Assembly: GCF_038967635.1 (NCBI RefSeq)
Contig: NZ_CP152413.1
Span: forward strand, 682,001-746,000
Source of the DNA: Bradyrhizobium sp. B124
Lineage (GTDB): Bacteria; Pseudomonadota; Alphaproteobacteria; Rhizobiales; Xanthobacteraceae
Length of the DNA stretch: 64,000 bases
Reading direction: 5' to 3'
Part shown: positions 14,882-28,171 of the stretch, piece by piece
Layout: each line of letters begins with the position of its first letter
Position numbering within the stretch: position 1 is the stretch's first letter
Notes under the pieces: model-generated
The model's input: the letters and a program-made list of their open reading frames with translations, nothing else
Database searches by the model: none
Told to the model about the DNA's origin: nothing
Translations under genes and position numbers: made by a program

Positions 14882-15817
14882 ATGCCTTCCGCCGACAACA
14901 GGATCGATCGCCGCGACTGGGGGCTGCTCGGCTTTCTGTCGGTGCTGTGGGGCGGCTCGTTCTTCTTCAACGGCGTGATCCTGCGCGAATTGCCGCCGCT
15001 GACGCTGGTGCTGCTGCGCGTCGTGCTCGGGGCGCTCATCCTGCTGCCGCTGCTGCGAGCCCGGAAGATCGAGTTTCCGCGTGGCCTGGCAGGCTGGGCG
15101 CCGTTCGCCGCGATGGGGCTGTTCAACAACGCACTGCCGTTCTCGCTGATCGTGTTCGGGCAGACCTATATTCCGAGCGGGCTGGCCTCGATCCTCAATG
15201 CGACGACGCCGCTGTTTGCGGTGGTCGTGATGGCGGTGGCCGGCGAGGAGCGGCTGCAGGCGCGCCGCGTGGCGGGCGTTGTGGTCGGGCTGATCGGGGT
15301 CGCGATCCTGCATGGTGATGCACTCGGCTTCGAGAGCAGGCAGGGCATCGGCATCCTGCTGTGCCTCGCCGGCGCCTTCAGCTACGGCATCGCAGCGCTG
15401 GTCGGGCGGCGGCTGCCACAGCGCGTGCCGCCGCTGGGCACGGCGACCTTCCAGATGATGGCCTCCAGCGTGATGATGGCGTTCGTCGCCGGTGTGGCCG
15501 AACGACCCTGGCTGTTGCCGATGCCGCATCTGACCACGTTGCTTGCCGTGCTCGGGCTCGCGGCGCTGTCGACGGCGCTGGCCTATATCGTGTTCTTTCA
15601 GATCTTGCAGCGCTCCGGCGCGACCAATGTGATGCTGGTGACGCTGCTGCTCCCGGTCACCGCGATGCTGCTCGGATTCTTCGTCCTCGGCGAGCCGGTC
15701 GCGCCGCGCGAGGTGATCGGTGCGCTCGTGATCGCCAGCGCGCTGCTCCTGATCGACGGGCGCGTCTTGGCCTGGTTCAGCCGCGCGCCTGTTTCCACGC
15801 CGCATACCAGCCGGTGA
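14882..15817 (+). CDS. EamA/DMT-family ten-TM exporter
   Basis: This is an inner-membrane protein of 311 residues with ten hydrophobic segments in two homologous halves, the usual layout of the drug/metabolite transporter superfamily. The first half has W-G-G-S-F-F-F-N-G and the second has a repeat-like G-I-L-L-C-L-A-G-A-F-S-Y-G-I and A-Y-I-V-F-F-Q-I-L-Q-R-S-G-A-T-N. ATG 14882 is preferred; GTG at 14873 would add only three residues. Substrates of close relatives are mostly unknown small metabolites such as amino acids. The last 41 bp overlap the end of the convergent carbamoyltransferase gene. Confidence 0.85.
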   Translation: MPSADNRIDRRDWGLLGFLSVLWGGSFFFNGVILRELPPLTLVLLRVVLGALILLPLLRARKIEFPRGLAGWAPFAAMGLFNNALPFSLIVFGQTYIPSGLASILNATTPLFAVVVMAVAGEERLQARRVAGVVVGLIGVAILHGDALGFESRQGIGILLCLAGAFSYGIAALVGRRLPQRVPPLGTATFQMMASSVMMAFVAGVAERPWLLPMPHLTTLLAVLGLAALSTALAYIVFFQILQRSGATNVMLVTLLLPVTAMLLGFFVLGEPVAPREVIGALVIASALLLIDGRVLAWFSRAPVSTPHTSR

Positions 15818-17930
15818 AGCGGCCGCTGTCGCGCTCGCCGCCGTGCCAGGCGGCGTAGGCGGTGCCGTCGTCGGCGACCAGCACCACGGCATCAAGCCCT
15901 TTGGAGCGGCGCAGCGTGTCCATCGCCTGCGCCGGTGTCTGCGCAATCGGGCCCGCGACATTGAACGACGTGTTGACCGACATCTCGACGCCGATATGGC
16001 GGCCGAGCGCCTTCAGATAGGCGTAGGTGAGGGGATCGTCGGCCTCGCGCACGATCTGGATGCGGCCGGTGCCATCGGCATGCACCACGGCGGGAATCTT
16101 CGCGCGCGCCTCCGGCTTCGAATGCGCCGTGAGCACCATGTAGTTGTAGGCGTTGTAGTCGTCGTCGGACGCGCCATCTTCCAGCTCGAAATAGTCGCGC
16201 GCGGCCTGCAGCGTCGCCATCGGCGCCAGCGGCCGGATCGCCTCGCGATACTTGACGCGCTCGTTGAGCCGCTCGCGCACCTCGGGGTCGCAGGGATTGG
16301 CGAGGATCGAGCGATGGCCGAGCGCACGCGGCCCGGTCTCGGCCGCGCCTTGATAGATCGCGATCACGCCGCCTTGCGCCACCATGCTGGCCATCAGATC
16401 GGCAACCGCATCGCGTCCTTCCGATGTCGCGACATTGCCGATCTCGGTGGAGGCGACATCGTCGGCGTGCAGCGCCGCGGTGATGTCGGCGTTCGAGGGC
16501 GGCAGGCCGCAATAGAAGGCGTGCGACAGCGGCGCACCGCGCGCCGCGCCCGCCATATGCGCGAACAGCCAGGCCGCGCCGATCGGCACGCCGGGATCGC
16601 CGGGCACCGGCGGCACCCACATATGCAGCCGGGTCTTGCGCTGCTGCACGCGTTCGAACCACGCCTCGTCAAAGTGCTCGAGCAGCCGCATGTTGCCGAG
16701 CGCGTTCAGCGCCACGCCGCCGGTCAGCACCAAACGGTCGGTGCCGGTTTTGCGCAGGAGATGGTCGATGACATGGATCATCGCGTCCTCGAACACCAAT
16801 TGCGTGGCGGCCGCCTTGTCGACGCGGTCCTTGGTGTCGGTGCGGTGATTGATGTCCTCGACGCGCAGCACGGCGTCGGGATTCCAGAGCTGGTCGGGCC
16901 GCAGCGGCGGGCCGAGAATATCGATCAGCGGCTGATGATAGGGGGTGTCGGCGGGGTCGGCGTACCAATTGGCCATCGCGCGATTGAGCTGCACGCTGCC
17001 ATTGGGCCCGAGCTGCAGCACCGCCTTCAGGCGCTGATAATAGGGATTGGTGGCGCGGTTCATGTCGCCCCAGGCGGCGGCGCCCATGTAGCGGCCCTCG
17101 CTGGAGAGCCAGGTCCAGCCGCCCTGGCTCGACGAGATCACGGTGTAGAAGGCGCCGAGCGAATCGAACAGGCTCTCATTGCAATAGAGCCGCTTCATCT
17201 CGCCGTTCTCGGCGACATAGAGCGAAATCGAGCCGACGTCGCCGGTGCCGTCGAGCACCGCAATCGCGACACGCTCGCGCACATCGGCGAACGGCGATGC
17301 GGTGAACGAGTACCAGGCGTGATTGTCATGATGCGGCATGCAGATCAGCGGCAGCTGTTCGCCAAGCCCGTACATCCTGCCGAGCCTGCGCGAGATACGC
17401 CGCACCTGGTCCATCTGGCGCAGGTTGATCGCCGGCGCGATCGGCGCGCGCAGCAATTTGATGCTGGCCGGCGCTTCCTCGAGCGAAGTGCGGATCAGCA
17501 TCGCCAGCAGCGCCGGATAGTCCCACGTGGTGACGAAAGCCGCGATGTCGCCGACGTCGCGGCCCATCCGCTGCAACACCTTGCGCATGTCGTCGAGTGC
17601 GTGTTGCGGAAACTCGTTGGTGTGTTTGTTTCCGGAAAAGCGCTCTTCCTCGTTGTTGACGATCAGGCGCGGTCCGTCCTTCTGGGTGACCTCGACCAGC
17701 GCGACGCCGGTGTTGTGCGTGCCGGGGCAGGCGAGGCCGGCGATGTAGACGGTCTCTCCGCGCTGCAGCCTTTCGCGGATCGAAGCGATCGTGCGCTGCG
17801 CGAACTCACCGTTGGCCTTGTGCAGGCCACGCTTCGCCAACGCACGTTCGCTGAGGCGGCGTGTGATCTCATAGCCCGCGGCGGCAATACGCGGATGCCG
17901 CGGACCGGTACGAATGTCCGGTTTACGCAA
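15777..17930 (-). CDS. NodU/CmcH-family O-carbamoyltransferase
   Basis: The protein (717 residues) has both halves of the family. The N-terminal Kae1-like domain includes Y-I-A-G-L-A-C-P-G-T-H-N-T-G-V-A-L, the E-E-E-R-F-S-G-N-K-H motif and H-D-N-H-A near residue 200. The YrdC-like C-terminal domain starts near residue 470 and holds G-P-R-A-L-G-H-R-S-I-L-A and R-E-A-I-R-P-L-A. Such enzymes use carbamoyl phosphate and ATP to carbamoylate a hydroxyl group; NodU decorates Nod factors and CmcH modifies cephamycin. It has a roughly 65-residue extension before the conserved start. No nod genes are near, so a polysaccharide or secondary metabolite is a better guess than a Nod factor. The gene ends inside the convergent EamA gene, a 41-bp tail overlap. 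Confidence 0.85.
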   Translation of the reverse strand: MRKPDIRTGPRHPRIAAAGYEITRRLSERALAKRGLHKANGEFAQRTIASIRERLQRGETVYIAGLACPGTHNTGVALVEVTQKDGPRLIVNNEEERFSGNKHTNEFPQHALDDMRKVLQRMGRDVGDIAAFVTTWDYPALLAMLIRTSLEEAPASIKLLRAPIAPAINLRQMDQVRRISRRLGRMYGLGEQLPLICMPHHDNHAWYSFTASPFADVRERVAIAVLDGTGDVGSISLYVAENGEMKRLYCNESLFDSLGAFYTVISSSQGGWTWLSSEGRYMGAAAWGDMNRATNPYYQRLKAVLQLGPNGSVQLNRAMANWYADPADTPYHQPLIDILGPPLRPDQLWNPDAVLRVEDINHRTDTKDRVDKAAATQLVFEDAMIHVIDHLLRKTGTDRLVLTGGVALNALGNMRLLEHFDEAWFERVQQRKTRLHMWVPPVPGDPGVPIGAAWLFAHMAGAARGAPLSHAFYCGLPPSNADITAALHADDVASTEIGNVATSEGRDAVADLMASMVAQGGVIAIYQGAAETGPRALGHRSILANPCDPEVRERLNERVKYREAIRPLAPMATLQAARDYFELEDGASDDDYNAYNYMVLTAHSKPEARAKIPAVVHADGTGRIQIVREADDPLTYAYLKALGRHIGVEMSVNTSFNVAGPIAQTPAQAMDTLRRSKGLDAVVLVADDGTAYAAWHGGERDSGRFTGWYAAWKQARG

Positions 17931-19370: not shown

Positions 19371-19655
19371 GTCGTCCCGGCGAAAGCCAGGACCCATAAC
19401 CACCGCATGTGATTGTGAGAGGGATTGGGGCCCCAGCGTCGCGCAGCAATGACCATTTGGGGTAATGGGTCCTGGCTTTCGCTAGGACGACGCGGAGTGT
19501 GTGGCGCGGCCTACATCCCGATCGTCGTCCCTGCGAAGGCAGGGACCCATAACCACAGGCTCGTGTTGTTGAAGAGGGCTGTGGCTCCAGCATCGTTCAA
19601 CAATTGCCTTCGGTGGTTATGGGTCCCGGCCTGCGCCGGGACGACAACTGAGTTT
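19371..19655. repeat. Two tandem copies of a palindromic GTCGTCCC...ATAACCAC intergenic element
   Basis: Four related arms occur here: 19371-19407 and 19521-19559 read GTCGTCCC-(GCGAA)-GGACCCATAACCAC, while 19462-19493 and 19609-19655 are the inverted forms. Each pair closes one large hairpin, and the two hairpins have similar loops (a shared CAGC-TCG-CA-CAAT pattern). This is therefore a roughly 130-bp palindromic element present twice in the same orientation. The stop codon and last codons of the reverse gene ending at 19617 lie in the final arm. Confidence 0.75.
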
Positions 19656-20981
19656 CTTGCACCACTTGTGAGTTACACATCCACGGCGTGCTGCACTATC
19701 CACCGGGATTTTCTCCGGCCGGCGGGCGCGTAGCGCCATGCCGCCGGCGACGCCGACGCCGATCACGTACATCCAGCCCTCGTGAAAATCGGACAGATGC
19801 GAGTTGAGCAGCGAGCTCGTGATGTTCTGCACGACGATGGCGAGCCCGATCCAGCTCACGAGATCGCGGCCGGCGAACAGCCTGACATGGCTGGTCCACA
19901 TCGTGTACAGCAGCAGAGTGCCGATCAGCCCCCACTGGATCGCGACATTGAAGGTCTGGTTGTGCGGGTTGTTGATCACCTCAGCGTTTAGGCCAGTTTG
20001 TCCGGCGGCATCCTGCGTGAACATGTGCCTGATCGCACCGGTGCCGTGTCCGAGCAGCGGCGCCTCGGTGATGAATTTGACCGACTTCCGCCAATAGGTC
20101 AGGCGCTGCGCGGTGGAGGCGATCCCGGACGTATCGTGGGCGCGATACTCGATGCCGACGTCGGCGATGCGATGGCGCAGATAGGGTGACGTCGTCCACA
20201 CCAGCAGGCTCGCCAGCGCGACAGCGGCGAACAGCAGCCGCGTGGCGCGGCGGGACAGATGCAGCGAGGCGAACAGGATCAGCAAGACCGGCATGGTAAC
20301 CAGCGCGGTCCGGGCCGAGACGACGTAGAGCATGTTGACGACGAACAGCAGGATCAGCGCGATGGCGCCGGCCGCGATGCGCCATTGCCGGGCCCGCAGC
20401 GCCGTCAACGCCGGCAGCATCAGCGCGAAGGCGCACAGCGCGAATTCCTGGCTCTGGTCGAGGTAGTTCTTGACCGGCACGCCGTCGGAGGCGGTGTGCG
20501 CGAGCTTGAGCTGTGGCAGCGCCAGCACGATCCAGGACAGGATCATCAGCAGTGTGCATGACACCAGGAAAGCCAGGAACACCGAGAGCCCGCGCTGTGA
20601 GCGCTGGAAATAGCCGAGCAGGAACGGCAGCAGCAGCAGCTTGCCGAGTGGCTTGATGCCTTGCAGCCGTTCGGCCCAGCCGGCCTCCGACCATGCCATG
20701 CCGAGCACGGCGAGCGCGACCAGCGCGACCGGCAATGCAAAGGCCGGCTGCGCGAGGTCGAGAATGAACTGCTCCCAGTCGATGGTCGGGATTACAGTGA
20801 CAAGCCACAGCAGCATGAAGACGGCAAGCGCCGTCGTCGACCATGGTAGCGAAGCCGCGGCGAGTGCGATCAGGGTATCGGTCGTGCGGACATAGGCGAT
20901 TGAGCCGGACCAGGCACGGACGCGGTCGTGCCATCGCGTTGGCTCGACGGCGCCGTCGAGCGTGTGCGACTCGGTGATCAT
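19617..20981 (-). CDS. O-antigen ligase / Wzy-like polysaccharide membrane protein
   Basis: This is a polytopic inner-membrane protein of 454 residues with ten or more hydrophobic segments and a long periplasmic loop containing H-G-T-G and N-N-P-H-N-Q-T, as in the WaaL/Wzy (O-Ag_ligase) family. Such proteins move or polymerise lipid-linked glycans on the periplasmic side. ATG 20981 is preferred; it leaves 7 bp after the upstream gene. The open frame continues upstream to a TTG at 21023 that would overlap that gene. The last about ten residues (R-P-G-A-G-R-D-P) come from the intergenic repeat. It is the last gene of the five-gene polysaccharide operon. Confidence 0.82.
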   Translation of the reverse strand: MITESHTLDGAVEPTRWHDRVRAWSGSIAYVRTTDTLIALAAASLPWSTTALAVFMLLWLVTVIPTIDWEQFILDLAQPAFALPVALVALAVLGMAWSEAGWAERLQGIKPLGKLLLLPFLLGYFQRSQRGLSVFLAFLVSCTLLMILSWIVLALPQLKLAHTASDGVPVKNYLDQSQEFALCAFALMLPALTALRARQWRIAAGAIALILLFVVNMLYVVSARTALVTMPVLLILFASLHLSRRATRLLFAAVALASLLVWTTSPYLRHRIADVGIEYRAHDTSGIASTAQRLTYWRKSVKFITEAPLLGHGTGAIRHMFTQDAAGQTGLNAEVINNPHNQTFNVAIQWGLIGTLLLYTMWTSHVRLFAGRDLVSWIGLAIVVQNITSSLLNSHLSDFHEGWMYVIGVGVAGGMALRARRPEKIPVDSAARRGCVTHKWCKKLSCRPGAGRDP

Positions 20982-20988
20982 GATCGGC

Positions 20989-22401
20989 TTACACGGCGGC
21001 GCCGTTGAATGCGGCGATCGCAACAGGCGGCGCCGGTACGTTGGCCACGGCTTCCGCGACGACCCGATGCGACAGCAGGTCGCGCGCCTGGGTGTGGTGG
21101 CCGAAGCGCTCGGCGAGCTCGGTCCGGCGCGCGCGGATTTTGTTCCGCCATTGCTCCTGCTCAGCCAGGACCCGGGTAACCGAGGCGCCGATGGACTCGA
21201 TCGAGAACGGGTCGAAATAATCGGCGAGCTCGCCCGCGACCTCGCGGAACACGGCGATGTCCGAGCACAGCACCGGCGTGTTGGCGGCCAGCGCCTCGAT
21301 GATCGGGACGCCGAAGCCTTCGGCGAGGCTCGGCATGATCAGGCCATGGGAATCGGCAATAAGCGCCGCCTTCTCGTGCTCCTCGACATAGCCGGAAAAG
21401 CGGACGTTGGGCGGTGCATTGCGAGTCAGGCTGGGGGCGCCGGTGTAACCGATCACGACGAGGTCGGCCTGGGGCAGGTTGCGGAACGAGCGGATGACCG
21501 CGGCGAGGTTCTTGCGCGGCTCGGCGGAGACGATCACGACGAAGTACGGCCGTCCGCTCGGCGCAGCCGCCGAAAGCGCCGGTGCATCGAACCTGGTCCG
21601 GGGATAGACCACCCGCGCCGGCAGATGCGCGAACTGCGGAAGCAAGGCGCGGAACCGGCCCAGGCTGTAATGCGAGACGAAGGCGAGCTCGTCGGCCTGC
21701 TGCAGGCTGGTGAACAGGCGCGACAGGAACAGCCGGGTTGCGACGTCGCTGAGCTTGAGGTCGGTGAGCGGCAACAGGTCGTGCACGACGCAGATCACCT
21801 TGGCGCCGCGCTTGCGCTGGATCGCGACCCGCGTCGGCGTATCGACGAGGATGACGTCGTAGCCGCGCGCATCGACCCGCGGCGGCGGCAGCCGCAGCAA
21901 CGCCGAGGTGTCCTGATAGCTGTAGAAGCCGGGTTCGAGCAGGAAGTCGCCGAACAGCTTGAGATGGCGCAGGTCGGTCGGGATGTATTCGAGGCCGTCG
22001 GCATGGTTCTCGATCAGGCTGACGCCGGCCGGCAGCAAATGGACCGCGCGCAGGAAGCTGACGGCGAATTCCAGCGAGGTCGCGGCGCGAAGCTTGCCGC
22101 GGCACCAGTCGACGGTGCGGCGCAGGCCGCCGCTGCTGCGCATGACGGGCGCATTCATGTCGGCCTCGTCGAGGAAGCGGTAGAGCGCGAGCAGCTCGAT
22201 CAGTCGCGACCCGTCGGGCAGCAGCCTTGTGCGCTGCTGGCGCTGGCGCAGCTTGCGATAGCGGCGGGTGGTCTCGACCAGCAAGGTCAGCTCGTGGCCG
22301 TCGCCGGCCAGCGAGCGGATCAGTTCACGCGTGAAATGGAAGATGCCACGCTTGTGGTTGGGTTCGCCGAGCGCCTCGCTGACGACCAGGATCTTTGTCA
22401 T
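20989..22401 (-). CDS. Glycosyltransferase family 4-like (GT-B fold)
   Basis: This 470-residue cytosolic or membrane-associated glycosyltransferase starts with K-I-L-V-V-S-E-A-L-G. The C-terminal nucleotide-sugar domain carries V-S-A-E-P-R-K-N-L near residue 285 and the classical E-G-F-G-V-P-I-I-E-A-L-A-A-N-T-P-V near residue 365, where the first Glu contacts the sugar nucleotide. The start at 22401 overlaps the stop of the ATPase gene by 4 bp (ATGA), meaning translational coupling. It probably adds a sugar to the glycan that the neighbouring ABC exporter carries. Sugar and linkage cannot be read. Confidence 0.87.
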   Translation of the reverse strand: MTKILVVSEALGEPNHKRGIFHFTRELIRSLAGDGHELTLLVETTRRYRKLRQRQQRTRLLPDGSRLIELLALYRFLDEADMNAPVMRSSGGLRRTVDWCRGKLRAATSLEFAVSFLRAVHLLPAGVSLIENHADGLEYIPTDLRHLKLFGDFLLEPGFYSYQDTSALLRLPPPRVDARGYDVILVDTPTRVAIQRKRGAKVICVVHDLLPLTDLKLSDVATRLFLSRLFTSLQQADELAFVSHYSLGRFRALLPQFAHLPARVVYPRTRFDAPALSAAAPSGRPYFVVIVSAEPRKNLAAVIRSFRNLPQADLVVIGYTGAPSLTRNAPPNVRFSGYVEEHEKAALIADSHGLIMPSLAEGFGVPIIEALAANTPVLCSDIAVFREVAGELADYFDPFSIESIGASVTRVLAEQEQWRNKIRARRTELAERFGHHTQARDLLSHRVVAEAVANVPAPPVAIAAFNGAAV

Positions 22402-23138
22402 GCGGTTATTTCTCTGAGCTCGGGGTGATGCGGGACGGGCGGATCCAGCGCAACGGTGCTGGTGATGCGGCCGTGATCGAGATTGACAATGCGGTTGCAG
22501 GTCCGGCGCAGCAGCCCCTGGTCGTGCGAGGCGATGATCACGATTGCCGCGGCCTCGACCATCTTGCGCAGCCGCTGCTCGGCCTTGGCCGAGAAATTCT
22601 CGTCGACCACGCTGAGCCATTCGTCGAGCAGCAGGATGTCGGCGGGAAACGCGGTCGCGGTCGCGAACAGTACGCGCATCAGCATGCCCGACGAGAACAT
22701 GCGCAGCGGCAGCCGCTGCATGCGTTCTTCCAGCTCCGTGAACGCCCAGATCTCGTCCAGGATCGCCGGCGTCGGCTTGCGGCCGGATATCCGTAGCAGC
22801 AGGTTGATATTGTCCGCGGCGACGAAATCGAGATTGACGCCGGCGCCGAGGCCAAGCAGCGGCACGATGTTGCCGGAAATCTGCACCTCGCCGCTGGTTG
22901 CCGGAAACACGCCGGCGATCAGCCGCAGCAAAGTGGACTTGCCGGAGCCGTTCGGCCCGGCGAGGCCGATGCGGGCGCCGGCCTTCGCCTCGATCGAGAT
23001 GTTGTCGATCGCGCGGATGGTGCGCATCTCGCTGGTCTGGCGGAACAGGCGGCCGAGCAGGCGGCGCTTCAGCGAAAAGTCGTAGGCGCCGTACAGCGGA
23101 TAATCGAGGCAGACGTCGCGGAGGTCGATGCTTGCCAT
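22398..23138 (-). CDS. ATPase of an ABC-type polysaccharide exporter (Wzt/KpsT/TagH-like)
   Basis: The product (246 residues) is the nucleotide-binding subunit that powers export of a glycan across the inner membrane. An N-terminal Y-P-L-Y-G-A and K-R-R-L-L are typical of this subfamily. Walker A is G-P-N-G-S-G-K-S-T near residue 63. The signature F-S-S-G-M is a degenerate form usual for polysaccharide exporters. Walker B is I-L-L-L-D-E-W-L, with the switch histidine in S-H-D. The protein stops after the nucleotide-binding domain, so it lacks the carbohydrate-binding C-terminal domain of long Wzt proteins. It starts 4 bp after the permease fusion gene. Confidence 0.9.
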   Translation of the reverse strand: MASIDLRDVCLDYPLYGAYDFSLKRRLLGRLFRQTSEMRTIRAIDNISIEAKAGARIGLAGPNGSGKSTLLRLIAGVFPATSGEVQISGNIVPLLGLGAGVNLDFVAADNINLLLRISGRKPTPAILDEIWAFTELEERMQRLPLRMFSSGMLMRVLFATATAFPADILLLDEWLSVVDENFSAKAEQRLRKMVEAAAIVIIASHDQGLLRRTCNRIVNLDHGRITSTVALDPPVPHHPELREITA

Positions 23139-23142
23139 GTTG

Positions 23143-25104
23143 CTAGATCCAGAATGCCGCTTTGCGCAATTGAGCGACCGTCACGGTCGCGGCGACCGCG
23201 AGCGCAGCAAGGCAGGCCAGCACGTAGATCACGCTCGGCATCGCGACATGGCCCGATGCCAGCGGGTCGCGCCAGACCGCGAACAGATGGGTCAGCGGAT
23301 TGAGCCGCATCACCGTGGAGCCGCGATCGATCATCTCAGGCGTCCAGATGATCGGCGAAGCCAGGAAGGCCAGGGTCAGCGAGGACTCGATGATCGGCTT
23401 GATGTCCCGGTAGCGTGTCGCCAGCGCGCCGAGCACGAGGCTGACGCCGAGCGCGCAGATGACGAACAGCACGAGGCCGGGCAGGGCGGCGATCGCGCCG
23501 CCGACGTCCCGCGGCGTCAGCGCGAGCCACAGGATCAGCGGCACGACTGCGTTGTGGGCCGCGAACAGCGCCTGGCGGAAGGTACATTGCAGCAGGAAGA
23601 TCACCGGCGGCAGCGCGCGATCCTTGATCAGGCTGGCCGAGCCCTGCAGGGCGGTGGTGGCGTCGAGCACGACGCTGTTGAGGAAGGTCCAGGCGGTGAG
23701 GCTCGCCGCCAGCATCGGCAGCCGCGCCACCGCGCTGGCGTTGGAGAGTTGGCCGATGACCGAGCCGAGCACGGCCACCATGATCGCCATCTGGATCGAC
23801 ATCCAAAAGGGTCCAAGGAGGGAGCGGACGTAGCGATGGCGGACGTCTGACCAGGCCAGCGCTGCAGCGATCTGAATCGCGCCGACGAGACCGGCCGTTC
23901 GGGGGCGCAGGGCTGGGGCTAGTGACCCTGCGTCCTTTGCGGCTGCCTCTTCAGTAACGACTTTGCGGTACACCGTCTCCACTCCCTCCTTGAAGGCTGA
24001 TGTCGAGTATTTCGTGATCGCGCGATGCCGCGCGGCCTGCCCCATGCGGCGGCGCCGCTCGGGATCGTTGATCAGCGTCTCGATGGCGTCGGCGAGGGCT
24101 GTGGGATCGCCGGGCGGCACCGTGATGGCCTCGAGGCCGTCGCGGGCGACGTGCGGAACGCCGGTGTTGAGCGCGGTGTTGACGATCGGGCGGCTCGCCG
24201 CCATCGCCTCGAGCTGGGCCAGCCCGAAGGTCTCGGCATTGGTCACCGATGGCATTACGAAGACGTCGGCGATGCGCATCAGCTTGACGCGTTCGCTCTC
24301 GGACACCGAGCCGAGCAGTCGGACGCGGTCCTGCAGGCCGTAGTCGCGGATCAGCTGCTCGAGATGGCCGCGCTCACGGCCCTCGCCGACGATCCAGACC
24401 TCGAAATTGCGGGCGTGGGCGGCGTGCACCAGCACGTCAAAACCCTTGTAGGGCACCAGCCGGCCGCAGGCGAGGACGAGGCGGCCGCGCGCGTTGACGT
24501 CGTCGGCTTGCGCGGCGGGCCGATCATACTTCTCGACATCGACACCGAAGGGAACGGCGTGGCACTTGTCGGCAAATTCCTGCAGCAGCGGCGCGGTTTC
24601 GATCAGCACCGGATCGGAGACGATGATCGCGGCGGCGCGGCGCAAGGTCCGCCGCATCATCGGCTCGACCAGAAAGCGCAAGGCCGCGTGCGAGACGATA
24701 TCGGCGTGCCAGTGCACCACCAGCGGACGCGCGCGGCCGAGCCCGAATGCGAACACCAGGTCGGCGAGCGGGAAGGGCGCGTGCAGCGCCAGCAGATCGT
24801 GCTCGGCGATGCGGCGCCACAGCCGCCACGGATAGGTCGGCGCCGCCGGCAGCGACAGCACGTCGCCGAACGAATGCACGCGCTCGACCGCAACGTCATT
24901 GACCACGATCTGCCGCTCGCCGCCGGCGCGCGAGCAGACCAGCACGGCGGCGTCGAACGTGTCCCTCAGGGAGGCACAGACGTCGCGGATCACGGTCAGC
25001 GTGCCGCCGAACAGATCGGGGTAGTAGACCTTGAAGATATGAAGCACCGACGGACGCCGGGCCGGCGCGTTCAGACCAATCATGGGCGGCTCGATCCGGA
25101 TCAT
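23143..25104 (-). CDS. Glycosyltransferase-ABC-2 permease fusion for polysaccharide export
   Basis: One open frame of 653 codons joins two proteins that are normally separate. Residues about 18-385 form a GT4 glycosyltransferase: H-I-F-K-V-Y-Y-P near the start, G-R-L-V-P-Y-K-G near 220, and T-F-G-L-A-Q-L-E-A-M-A near 300. After a linker of about 28 residues, residues 414-653 form a full Wzm/KpsM-type permease that begins with W-S-D-V-R-H-R-Y-V-R-S-L-L-G-P-F-W and has six hydrophobic segments ending in K-A-A-F-W-I. The ATPase gene follows 4 bp later. The permease part has no methionine before its conserved start, so separate translation is unlikely. The gene's ATG overlaps the preceding small gene by 4 bp. 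I infer that the final sugar transfer and export are physically linked. Confidence 0.85.
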   Translation of the reverse strand: MIRIEPPMIGLNAPARRPSVLHIFKVYYPDLFGGTLTVIRDVCASLRDTFDAAVLVCSRAGGERQIVVNDVAVERVHSFGDVLSLPAAPTYPWRLWRRIAEHDLLALHAPFPLADLVFAFGLGRARPLVVHWHADIVSHAALRFLVEPMMRRTLRRAAAIIVSDPVLIETAPLLQEFADKCHAVPFGVDVEKYDRPAAQADDVNARGRLVLACGRLVPYKGFDVLVHAAHARNFEVWIVGEGRERGHLEQLIRDYGLQDRVRLLGSVSESERVKLMRIADVFVMPSVTNAETFGLAQLEAMAASRPIVNTALNTGVPHVARDGLEAITVPPGDPTALADAIETLINDPERRRRMGQAARHRAITKYSTSAFKEGVETVYRKVVTEEAAAKDAGSLAPALRPRTAGLVGAIQIAAALAWSDVRHRYVRSLLGPFWMSIQMAIMVAVLGSVIGQLSNASAVARLPMLAASLTAWTFLNSVVLDATTALQGSASLIKDRALPPVIFLLQCTFRQALFAAHNAVVPLILWLALTPRDVGGAIAALPGLVLFVICALGVSLVLGALATRYRDIKPIIESSLTLAFLASPIIWTPEMIDRGSTVMRLNPLTHLFAVWRDPLASGHVAMPSVIYVLACLAALAVAATVTVAQLRKAAFWI

Positions 25105-25286
25105 GCAACGAACAGGGCGACAACGAACGGCAGCGCCAGCGCGGCGGCGAACACCAGCGAGCGCAGCAGCGCCGGAAACACCGGCTCGATCGGGCCGCAG
25201 GCGGCCTGCGGCGTGAAACGGAGTGTGGTGGCGAACCGAATGGGTTCGCGTGGCGAACCGGGGTCGTGGGCCGAACGAAGAGACAT
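25101..25286 (-). CDS. Small single-TM membrane protein, first gene of the polysaccharide operon
   Basis: The 61-residue product is mostly polar and basic at first, then has one hydrophobic helix covering its last about 22 residues (L-L-R-S-L-V-F-A-A-A-L-A-L-P-F-V-V). Its TGA overlaps the ATG of the fusion gene by 4 bp, which is the main reason to believe it is translated. I chose the start M-S-L-R-S at 25286. The frame stays open up to 25379, but that longer start lies inside the palindromic operator. I do not recognise a family. It could be a leader peptide for coupling or a small accessory subunit of the exporter. Confidence 0.5.
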   Translation of the reverse strand: MSLRSAHDPGSPREPIRFATTLRFTPQAACGPIEPVFPALLRSLVFAAALALPFVVALFVA

Positions 25287-25321
25287 TGCGTCGGATTCCC
25301 TGCTGAATGGATTCTGGATAC

Positions 25322-25377
25322 GTGGGAATATTTCACACGTCAATGGGGTCGGGCTAAAATGTGGGATTATGTCCCAC
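25322..25377. promoter_or_regulatory. Palindromic operator module 1 (two sites, 39 bp apart)
   Basis: Site A at 25322-25338 reads GTGGGAATATTTCACAC and site B at 25361-25377 reads GTGGGATTATGTCCCAC. Each is a 17-bp dyad of form GTGGGA-N5-TCnCAC, and B is perfect. The module lies 36 bp upstream of the small membrane-protein gene that starts the reverse polysaccharide operon. The same pair with the same spacing recurs at 25978-26033. Confidence 0.75.
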
Positions 25378-25472
25378 ATGTGGCGGTAGACAACTTTTTT
25401 GACAGGGGGCGCATGGCGGGCGATCGCGCCGTGACGGCGCGAGGCGAGCGGGGCGGGAGTGCTAGCGAGACG

Positions 25473-25907
25473 TCAGGCCGGCTCGGCCGTGCTGCCCGTC
25501 GTCGATGGCTGCAACTGGCGCCTGATGGCGGGGATGTCGAAATGGATCCGCTCGGGCAGCATCGCGGCTGCGGGCCGCTGCAGATCCTGCTCGATGACGA
25601 CGCGCTTGCCGCCATCCGATGTCAGCGCGATCGAGATCGAGTTCGCCCGCGGCTCGGCGGTGAGGCCGGCATGCGCGCGGCTGGCATATTCGCCGGCGCG
25701 CAGGCCGCCGAAACCGAAGGCGAGCAGGCGGCCATAGATGTACAGCGCCAGCAGATCGGTTTCGCCGAAGCGGCGCGGCGAACCGGGCGCCACGCCCGGC
25801 AGGCAGGGATAGCCGCCCGCCATCACCGTCGACACGAACTCCTCGTAGGGAACCTGGGCGATCCGGCAGGCTTCCGCGATCGCAAGGTCGAATCAGGCAG
25901 GCGCCAT
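25473..25907 (-). pseudogene. Small hypothetical gene with an in-frame TGA at codon 5 (or restarted at GTG 25835)
   Basis: From ATG 25907 the frame reads M-A-P-A, then TGA (25893-25895), then continues as F-D-L-A-I-A-E-A-C-R-I without another stop for about 140 codons to 25473. The sequence after the stop looks like real protein (A-L-Y-I-Y-G-R-L-L-A-F-G-F-G-G-L-R-A-G-E-Y), with normal codon use. Translation could restart at GTG 25835, giving 120 residues, although its GAGGAG is too close (3 nt). The middle resembles a small MerR-like or winged DNA-binding module, but I do not recognise a named family. It lies between the two operator modules. Confidence 0.5.
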
Positions 25908-25977
25908 GGAGCGGTCCGTAGGGATATCGGCGCCCGCAGGCCGCGCCGTGTCCGGAGGTTACTTTTGTTTCCCATAA

Positions 25978-26033
25978 GTGGGAAAATGTCACACGTCAAG
26001 CAAGGTGGGCAAAACGGTGGGATTGTGTCCCAC
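25978..26033. promoter_or_regulatory. Palindromic operator module 2 (two sites, 39 bp apart)
   Basis: Site A at 25978-25994 reads GTGGGAAAATGTCACAC and site B at 26017-26033 reads GTGGGATTGTGTCCCAC. Spacing and orientation are the same as in module 1, and bases between the sites are partly conserved (GTCAA after site A, GGGC-AAAA before site B). An extra dyad, TTTCCCA-TAAG-TGGGAAA, overlaps site A at 25968-25985. Site B ends 24 bp before the ATG of the DUF6502-like gene, so binding would block or shape its transcription start. Confidence 0.75.
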
Positions 26034-26057
26034 GCGGCGGACGGCTAAAAGTTAGGC

Positions 26058-26933
26058 ATGAATGCCAAGCCCCCGAAGCCGAAACCGGGATCGTCCGCGC
26101 CGATCGCCGCCGCGAAGCTGCACGCGCCGCTGGCGCGGATGCTGCGCCCGCTGGTGCGGCTTTGCGTCCGCGGCGGCATGACATTTCCGGCGCTGACCCA
26201 GCTGCTGCGCGAGCTCTATGTCAACGTCGCCGAGCACGACTTCGCGCTCGAGGGCAAGGAGCAGACCGACAGCCGCGTCAGCCTCTTGACCGGCATCCAC
26301 CGCAAGGAGGTCGCGCGGCTGCGCGGCGCGGGCGCGCCGGTCAATGCGGTGCCGGCGACGCTGTCGCGCACCAGCGCAATCATCGCGCGCTGGCTGGCCG
26401 CGCCCGAATTCACCGACACGAAGGGCGATCCGCTGCCGTTGCCGCGCACCGCCGATGGCGGCGCGCCGTCGTTCGAGACGCTGGTCGAATCGATCACCAA
26501 GGATGTGCGGCCGCGCGCGGTGCTTGACGAATGGCTCGACCGCAAGCTCGTCACGATCAATGATCGCGACGAGATCATGCTGGTCGAGGAGGCCTTCGTC
26601 CCGCATGGCGACGACGATCGCAAATGGCACTATCTCGGCCGTAACCTGCACGACCATGTCGCGGCTGCCGAGATGAACGTGTCGTCGGCGACGCCGCGCT
26701 TCCTCGAACGCGCGGTGCATTACGACGGGCTGTCGGCCAAACTGGCAAAACGGCTCGAGGGCCGTTCGCGCGAGCTCGCGATGGAGGCGTTGAAGGTCGC
26801 CAACCGCGAGGCCAACCGCGCCTTGGCCAAGGACAAGGGCGGCGACTACCGCTGGAATTTCGGCATCTACATCTATCGCGAGGGCCCCGACGGTCCGGTC
26901 GATGACGATGCCGACGAAGGCGGTGCGGCATGA
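26058..26933 (+). CDS. DUF6502-like protein with a putative helix-turn-helix
   Basis: This 291-residue cytosolic protein has no signal peptide. After a Pro/Lys-rich N-terminus, residues about 20-100 are conserved-looking: L-V-R-L-C-V-R-G-G-M-T-F-P-A-L, then S-R-V-S-L-L-T-G-I-H-R-K-E-V-A-R-L-R-G, which reads like a helix-turn-helix with a recognition helix at the second half. This matches my memory of the uncharacterised DUF6502 family. The remainder is mixed alpha/beta with F-L-E-R-A-V-H-Y-D-G-L near residue 220. The stop overlaps the DUF5666-like gene by 4 bp, so the pair is co-translated. Operator module 2 is directly upstream. A DNA-binding, possibly self-regulating role is my inference. 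Confidence 0.65.
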   Translation: MNAKPPKPKPGSSAPIAAAKLHAPLARMLRPLVRLCVRGGMTFPALTQLLRELYVNVAEHDFALEGKEQTDSRVSLLTGIHRKEVARLRGAGAPVNAVPATLSRTSAIIARWLAAPEFTDTKGDPLPLPRTADGGAPSFETLVESITKDVRPRAVLDEWLDRKLVTINDRDEIMLVEEAFVPHGDDDRKWHYLGRNLHDHVAAAEMNVSSATPRFLERAVHYDGLSAKLAKRLEGRSRELAMEALKVANREANRALAKDKGGDYRWNFGIYIYREGPDGPVDDDADEGGAA

Positions 26934-28171
26934 AAGGCCCGCCGGTCATTTCCCGCCGCGCGCTGCTGATCGGCTTCTGGCTCGCCGGAACTTCGCTCGC
27001 GGGCGCGCAGGTCAAGAAGCGCGGCAACGATCAGGGCATCGGCGGCACCGGGATCACCGGCTCCGACCAGGGCATCGGTGGCACCGGCATTGTCGGCGTG
27101 ATCCAGCGGTTCGGCTCGATCTACGTCAATGGCGAGCGCGTCGCTTATGCGGCCGACGTTCCGGTGCGGATCGACGGCGAGGCGGCGAATGCCAAAGCGC
27201 TGCGGATCGGCCAGCTCGCGCGCGTGGTCGCAGAGCGCGATGCCGGCGGCACGCTGTCGACCAAGCGCATCGATGTCGCGAGCGAAGTGACCGGACCGGT
27301 CGAGCAGATGAAATCGGGCGAGCTGACGGTGCTCGGCCAGAAGGTCGCCTGGAGCGGCCGCGAGAGCTGGCTGAAGGTCGGCGCGCACGTCGCCGTGTTC
27401 GGGCTGCGCCGCACCGATGGCATCGTCGTCGCTAGCCTGGTGCAGGAGCGCCATGACGCTGCGATGCGCGTCGCAGGACCGCTCGAGCGCGACCGCGACG
27501 GAGCGTTCCGGATCGGCGAGCTCAAGCTCAGCGGCGTCGATGCGGCTTTGGCCGGTCAGCGCGTGCAGGCCGAAGGCCACGTCGCGCAGGGTGTGATGCA
27601 GGTCTCGCGCAGCCGCGCCGACGACTTCTCCGATCTCACCGGCGCGAAGCGACTCCTGATCGAGGCCTATGTGCGGCGGGTCGGCAATGACCTGCAGCTC
27701 GGCGCCGGCTTCGTCGCGCGCGACCACTCGCGCTTTTCGCCGCCGGCCGATACGCGCGTGGTCGTCAACGCGCAGCTGTCGGGGACGCGCGAGCTGCGGG
27801 TCGAGTCGGTGCACTCGGTCACCAGATTCCCGGGCTCCTCGGTGAAGAGCCCCGGCACGCCGGGCCGTGGGTCCGGCGGTGGCGGTTCCGGGCCGGGACA
27901 TGGATCCGGACCGGGTGGGCGCGGTGCGCCTGGTGGCGGCGGCCCCGGTGGCAGCCCGGGCGGGCCGTCTGGTGCGCCCGGCGGCGGGCCACCAGGTGGT
28001 GGCGGTCCTGCGCCCGATCCCCTCAATGGCGGAACGACCGGCCCGGGTCCTGGCGGCTTCGGCTCACCCGGCGGACCATTCGGTCCCGGTGGTGGTGGTC
28101 CATTCGGACCCGGCGGCGGATTCGGAGGCGGCGGGCCGCCCGGCGGCATGGGCGGCGGTGGCCGCCGCTAA
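26930..28171 (+). CDS. Exported DUF5666-like protein with Gly/Pro-rich tail
   Basis: The product (413 residues) starts with a Tat-like signal, S-R-R-A-L-L-I-G-F, ending near A-G-A-Q. Two copies of D-Q-G-I-G-G-T-G-I follow (residues about 34-54), then small beta domains of the DUF5666 type: I-Q-R-F-G-S-I-Y-V-N-G-E-R near 58, and again with G-E-L-T-V-L-G-Q-K-V near 128. These are OB-like modules of unknown function. From about residue 303 to the end the sequence is almost only Gly, Pro, Ser and Phe (a flexible, low-complexity tail). The ATG overlaps the preceding gene by 4 bp. The stop codon TAA is the first triplet of a palindromic repeat. Confidence 0.68.
   Translation: MKGPPVISRRALLIGFWLAGTSLAGAQVKKRGNDQGIGGTGITGSDQGIGGTGIVGVIQRFGSIYVNGERVAYAADVPVRIDGEAANAKALRIGQLARVVAERDAGGTLSTKRIDVASEVTGPVEQMKSGELTVLGQKVAWSGRESWLKVGAHVAVFGLRRTDGIVVASLVQERHDAAMRVAGPLERDRDGAFRIGELKLSGVDAALAGQRVQAEGHVAQGVMQVSRSRADDFSDLTGAKRLLIEAYVRRVGNDLQLGAGFVARDHSRFSPPADTRVVVNAQLSGTRELRVESVHSVTRFPGSSVKSPGTPGRGSGGGGSGPGHGSGPGGRGAPGGGGPGGSPGGPSGAPGGGPPGGGGPAPDPLNGGTTGPGPGGFGSPGGPFGPGGGGPFGPGGGFGGGGPPGGMGGGGRR

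Follow-up and report, generated by a model that had tools for sequence, protein, structure and literature searches.

The four 17-bp dyads found in a stretch of the Bradyrhizobium sp. B124 genome (contig NZ_CP152413.1, positions 682,001 to 746,000; the window in what follows, 64,000 nucleotides) are probably operators of the adjoining DUF6502 protein, which would be an autoregulator repressing itself and a polysaccharide export operon; its mRNA would be leaderless, and a second operator module would have arisen by local duplication. The sites, the geometry of the promoter boxes around them, their conservation and their linkage to DUF6502 genes were established by computation. Judged from sequence, we are dealing with a control element of an ordinary kind, but for a family without known function, DUF6502 most likely being an autoregulatory DNA-binding protein. 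The arrangement resembles the divergent autoregulated operators of dimeric helix-turn-helix (HTH) regulators, in which palindromic operators likewise lie over back-to-back promoters with the regulator gene on one side and the target operon on the other. It differs in that the proposed regulator comes from a Pfam family of unknown function and in that the regulator mRNA is predicted to be leaderless.

Dyads, predicted promoters and neighbouring genes

The sequence bears out the preliminary description as far as the positions of the four matching dyads are concerned (Table 1), and the same is true for their arrangement in two modules of the same orientation, 656 bp apart, in both of which site 1 and site 2 are separated by 39 bp (start to start). 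This distance had been likened to four helical turns, which is not quite right, as 39 bp correspond to 3.7 turns at 10.5 bp. The modules agree in 44 of 56 bases, and in the six flanking 20-base stretches that were compared agreement amounts to 1-8 bases of 20. Chance had been considered an unlikely source of the sites, and the counts point in the same direction: the pattern GTGGGA-N5-TCMCAC yielded six listed matches in the window, equivalent to four places because two perfect dyads are counted once per strand, against 0.02 expected, and none of 100 shuffles scored as high. In the whole genome (9,169,800-bp contig) the exact pattern is confined to the four places in the window, so that the random spread named beforehand as a counter-argument was not found.

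Table 1. Features of the window around the two dyad modules (positions refer to the window; the function of promoter boxes is predicted)
Feature	Position	Strand	Remarks
O-antigen-ligase-type protein	19617-21023	-	Profile match
GT4 glycosyltransferase	20989-22620 (open frame)	-	True start uncertain
ABC transporter ATPase	22398-23138	-	Same leftward operon; profile match
GT4 glycosyltransferase fused to ABC-2 export permease	23143-25104	-	Pfam-type profile match; distribution in genus
Small 61-aa protein, hydrophobic C-terminal stretch	25101-25286	-	First gene of leftward operon; ATG at 25286; 4-bp overlap with next gene
Module 1 leftward -10 box, TATCCA	25315-25320	-	17 bp from -35 box
Module 1 site 1	25322-25338	+	GTGGGA-N5-TCACAC; in -35/-10 spacer of leftward polysaccharide-operon promoter
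Module 1 leftward -35 box, TTGACG	25338-25343	-	Sequence
Module 1 site 2	25361-25377	+	GTGGGATTATGTCCCAC; identical in all 10 whole genomes of the same gene order
Short frame between modules	25473-25835	-	Relatives elsewhere
Module 2 leftward -10 box, TATGGG	25971-25976	-	Sequence
Module 2 site 1	25978-25994	+	GTGGGA-N5-TCACAC; inside spacer of leftward promoter
Module 2 leftward -35 box, TTGACG	25994-25999	-	Same in 52/54 genus modules
Module 2 site 2	26017-26033	+	GTGGGATTGTGTCCCAC; putative operator adjoining DUF6502
Module 2 rightward -35 box, TTGTGT	26023-26028	+	Within site 2
Rightward -10 box, TAAAAG	26046-26051	+	17 bp from -35 box, 6 nt before DUF6502 ATG; predicted start point
DUF6502 protein, 291 aa	26058-26933	+	Predicted HTH at residues 71-88; proposed DNA-binding regulator
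DUF5666 protein	26930-28171	+	4-bp overlap with DUF6502

Both modules carry, on the minus strand, a TTGACG-17 bp-(TATGGG or TATCCA) arrangement whose spacer is filled by site 1. When one module per genome is considered across the 54 Bradyrhizobium genomes with DUF6502, the rightward -35 box reads TTGTGT in 45, TTGTAT in eight and TTGTCT in one, while TACAAT is the commonest rightward -10 box (28/54). The operators overlap both predicted divergent promoters, the rightward -35 box being recognisable as TTGTNT in 54/54 and the leftward one as TTGACG in 52/54 modules. The distance from the rightward -10 box to the ATG is 6 nt in 51 modules, 5 nt in two and 7 nt in one. This geometry places the start point on the ATG itself and thus predicts a leaderless DUF6502 mRNA. 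Leaderless mRNAs exist in Bradyrhizobium, for which one report gives 192 start points mapped exactly at start codons (PMC4842269). Outside the genus, an in-frame start follows the site after 23-26 nt in 11 of the 16 loci with a site-2-like site. In named records from other genera (among them Methylobacterium, Bosea, Methylocapsa, Alsobacter, one Rhizobiales bacterium and Microvirga), an ATG, assigned by position and not by frame, lies 24-25 nt after the site in 12 of 13; in the Microvirga record no site-2-like site was seen.

We propose that a DUF6502 dimer binds GTGGGA-N5-TCCCAC, that one dimer would occupy the spacer of the leftward sigma-70-type promoter and that a second would cover the -35 box of the rightward DUF6502-DUF5666 promoter. 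With both promoters occupied, binding would shut both, resulting in autorepression as well as in repression of the operon, and some signal would release this repression. DUF6502 itself would be made from the leaderless mRNA, and DUF5666 is probably encoded on the same transcript. Among the leftward genes, the glycosyltransferase-permease fusion forms a single protein of 653 aa. The small protein encoded ahead of it has neither a Pfam match (searched as a longer, 92-aa frame) nor an NCBIfam match. A carbamoyltransferase gene is situated downstream of the polysaccharide genes (15777-17930, - strand).

Co-occurrence of the dyad and DUF6502 within and beyond the genus

Dyads, DUF6502 genes and the polysaccharide operon were counted in an identical set of 146 Bradyrhizobium genomes. 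DUF6502 is present in 54, and in each of these, the upstream DNA having been read in all, a perfect GTGGGATTGTNTCCCAC precedes its ATG. Site 1 is clear in 52, degenerate in one (G049) and one base short in another (G042). A strict two-site pattern matched 17 genomes only, mainly because site 1 reads GTGGGAAAATTTACCAC in most. Of the 146 genomes, 64 contain the exact dyad, namely all those with DUF6502 and 10 among the 92 that lack it, the latter with one match each; these stray dyads have other centre bases in the nine listed, G079 being the tenth. Within the 54 genomes, 64 of 66 exact dyads belong to modules (54 beside DUF6502 and 10 in module 1), and the other two reside in G002 and G038. 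The glycosyltransferase-permease fusion (E <= 1e-150) was found in 46 of the 146 genomes, all of them with DUF6502 on the same contig and near the module, and eight DUF6502 genomes gave no match for the fusion gene. An operon without DUF6502 was thus not found among the 146 genomes, and the converse, DUF6502 without the operon, does occur. A record titled Frankia sp. RB7 (JAUEPE010000003.1, L186) has a Bradyrhizobium-type DUF6502 locus and is possibly mislabelled or mixed.

The family set comprises 296 genomes, 11 of which have DUF6502 (10 belonging to Bradyrhizobium itself); in the order set it was detected in 37 of 397 genomes (35 above the cut-off) and in the phylum set in 21 of 398. Leaving aside the two sub-threshold order-set matches and those from the own genus, we obtained 50 outside-genus genes, some of which stem from sister strains. 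In the 300 bp upstream, 28 of these genes have a site with one mismatch or none (0 of 412 control windows), and the number rises to 33 when two mismatches are allowed (4 of 412). Such a close site is missing in 17 of the 50, some of which have altered dyads; nothing recognisable was seen at some of these 17 loci (L119, L120, L126, L257, L271). The preliminary description had made loss of the motif upstream of orthologues an argument against its proposal. What we find is linkage of the operator to the putative regulator gene across species, in 54/54 cases within the genus and in 33/50 outside. Its central idea, a single dimeric protein controlling both units with DUF6502 as the likely candidate, gains indirect support from this conservation and from the confinement of the motif in the genome, and we consider it likely. 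When up to three mismatches are allowed, at least one site is present in each of 67 Bradyrhizobium-type and 13 other named loci (80 in all), and 77 have at least two, against at least one site in 107 of 2831 control 200-bp windows elsewhere in the named loci, some of which may be module-1 copies.

A search for a wider regulon with at most one mismatch gave 12 places in the genome versus 22 for a reversed-pattern control and hence no excess. The 12 places are the four sites in the window, three inside tRNA genes and five others, among which conservation in relatives was looked at for C1:2671873 (L213, 1501-1517). Here, an IalB-type gene lies on one side of GTGGGCATATTTCCCAC and a 37-aa frame on the other, and the dyad is kept in 8/8 readable relatives with varying flanking bases (G049 matched too little to be read, and G118 is without such a locus). 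DNA of this locus is present in 10 of the 146 genomes, all of which have DUF6502, so that the comparison comprises no DUF6502-less genome. This dyad is a candidate further target and suggests, as far as sequence can tell, a small regulon around the cell envelope.

The DUF6502 protein and variation of its predicted recognition helix

The protein encoded in the window matches the Pfam DUF6502 profile (PF20112) over residues 22-274 with 101.7 bits, the curated cut-off being 27, and a database search scored 7997 candidates, of which 3979 are relatives at E <= 0.001. It matches no known regulator family (Pfam, E 0.001; NCBIfam, E 1), nor did sequence comparison reveal a convincing solved relative. 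In the AlphaFold model (90 sequences, mean pLDDT 79.5, pTM 0.62), helices 71-78 and 82-88 flank a conserved TDSRVSLLTGIHRKEV and form an HTH-like pair, and a winged-helix-like part is predicted at residues 139-175. Foldseek gave no match for this model at E <= 0.001. A wider look, covering Foldseek's top chains, yielded local HTH and winged-helix matches together with weak ones to full-length HetR; a search with the N-terminal domain by itself produced no helpful match. DeoR DNA-binding domains, the HTH of sigma factors and the winged helix of IclR have structural Z scores within the range of common arrangements, and no sequence relation to DUF6502 was found for them. The cyanobacterial HetR recognizes GGG-N5-CCC and the sites described here differ in being of the GGG-N7-CCC form. 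Peptidase_S48 (PF03574), which we take to be the HetR family, was unlisted when 20 DUF6502 proteins were run through hmmscan with E up to 10, a search whose filters drop most matches above E 0.1, and a PF03574 probe of the own genome gave no match, 14 controls being equally silent. Literature searches found nothing on HetR together with GTGGG and, for the motif, one unrelated chicken paper and nothing relevant; neither DUF6502 nor PF20112 is mentioned in the literature searched, the scope of which excluded most subscription papers. DUF5666 is named in four of the papers listed.

In the 50 outside-genus genes, residue 81 and its neighbours vary along with the dyad. An exact GGGA-N5-TCCC is present within 300 bp of 31 of the 38 H-type DUF6502 genes and of none of the 12 non-H genes. 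The latter go with GGGA-N6-TCCC (three TRK genes), GGGT-N5-(A/C)CCC (two QRK genes) or TGTG-N5-CACA (three TRR/QRR genes, L122 and L123 being QRR), and four genes (PRR, NRK, NRR and TKR) have none of those dyads. Exceptions among the H-type genes are L127, which has a GGGT/ACCC dyad, and L115, L271, L272, L275, L279 and L280 with half or altered sites or none. On a quick tree with six long-branched rows of unsure placement, the helix changed five times, the TGTG class appears in two places, and two independent pairs rest on well-supported branches, too few to reach significance. The link between helix and dyad is confounded by descent and is therefore consistent with a recognition code, not proof of one. 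Only tentatively, then, do we suggest that DUF6502 is an unrecognised transcription-factor family across Pseudomonadota with a HetR-like overall arrangement, that many of its members autoregulate a leaderless gene and that residues 81-83 (HRK, TRK, QRK or TRR/QRR) set the operator (GGGA-N5-TCCC, GGGA-N6-TCCC, GGGT-N5-ACCC or TGTG-N5-CACA, respectively).

Origin of the second module and alternative readings

Most DUF6502-containing Bradyrhizobium genomes have one module, located between DUF6502 and the small-protein gene or the polysaccharide operon; the notion that each unit has an operator copy of its own is thus not supported. The single-module state is presumably the older one. A gene order with an extra segment occurs in 10 of the 54 genomes, and the second module accompanies the segment in all ten. 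Selection by gene order alone, thus independently of the dyad, gave twelve named records, partly from the same strains, and all twelve contain module 1 with a perfect second dyad and a spacing of 38-40 bp; centre bases differ in three of them, the arms being kept. Behind module 2, five of the ten two-module genomes contain what seems to be left of the small-protein gene (40-52% identity). In the window such a remnant is weak, and the region 25473-25900 looks like duplication debris. Comparison with homologous frames of relatives shows an early stop in the frame between the modules, which may therefore be decaying. The module at 25322-25377 is a local duplication in one Bradyrhizobium clade, and the presence of two modules fits a tandem duplication after which different parts would have decayed.

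Given this origin, the identical 39-bp spacing, which had been read as a sign of co-operative binding, perhaps by DNA looping, probably reflects shared descent. Beside DUF6502 the spacing within the genus is 39 bp in 37 of 54 genomes, 38-42 bp in 45 (including those 37) and 27-30 bp in eight, one of the 54 values being a misassignment; outside the genus it varies from about 24 to 74 bp, the extremes resting on weaker sites. Among 29 distances, deduplicated by hand with one value per lineage as a matter of judgement, the values cluster at 27-30, 38-42, 49-50 and 59-61; further groups lie at 54-56 and 66-68, and a single value is 46. For a period of 10.5 bp these distances give R 0.39, with p about 0.015, and R is higher at 9.5-10 bp, which is no more than suggestive of a helical-phase preference. 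Co-operativity has some support: the second dyad of module 1 is perfect in 10/10 genomes and in the gene-order records, and in the ten sequences read no rightward -10 box was seen and site 2 covers no recognisable promoter box, suggesting that the leftward promoter needs both sites.

The same retention of site 2 could also mean that DUF6502 binds but mainly activates, or activates one side and represses the other, and arithmetic from the promoter boxes puts the centre of site 2 at about -60 relative to the leftward start, where activators commonly bind. We regard this as unlikely, since site 1 in a spacer and site 2 on a -35 box are typical repressor positions, and the rightward boxes are close to consensus and should need no activator help. 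That a site is conserved next to a gene does not by itself identify the protein that binds it, and an unlinked regulator might control both DUF6502-DUF5666 and the polysaccharide operon, with DUF6502 as a mere target; the further site by the IalB-type gene, kept in relatives, would agree with this. Such a regulator would, however, have to be gained and lost together with DUF6502 across classes, exact dyads are rare where DUF6502 is absent, and dyad variants go with variants of the DUF6502 helix, all of which makes this explanation improbable. Short GC-rich inverted repeats are common, and the one-mismatch matches inside tRNA genes could be taken as a hint of RNA hairpins, ends of repeat elements or chance palindromes. 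Each adjoining transcript is predicted to start downstream of the sites, though, their exact form is not repeated elsewhere in the genome and they are kept in other families and classes; we give this reading hardly any weight.

Repression by DUF6502 itself, the reading that we prefer, would give the DUF6502 family a function open to test, together with a binding site and with genes that it may control. In Bradyrhizobium the family would also be linked to an operon for polysaccharide export; surface polysaccharides are important for nodulation in this genus of plant symbionts. Helix and operator variants occurring in nature offer ready material for testing a recognition code. If DUF6502 binds these sites, a family of unexplained bacterial proteins is likely to consist of gene regulators.
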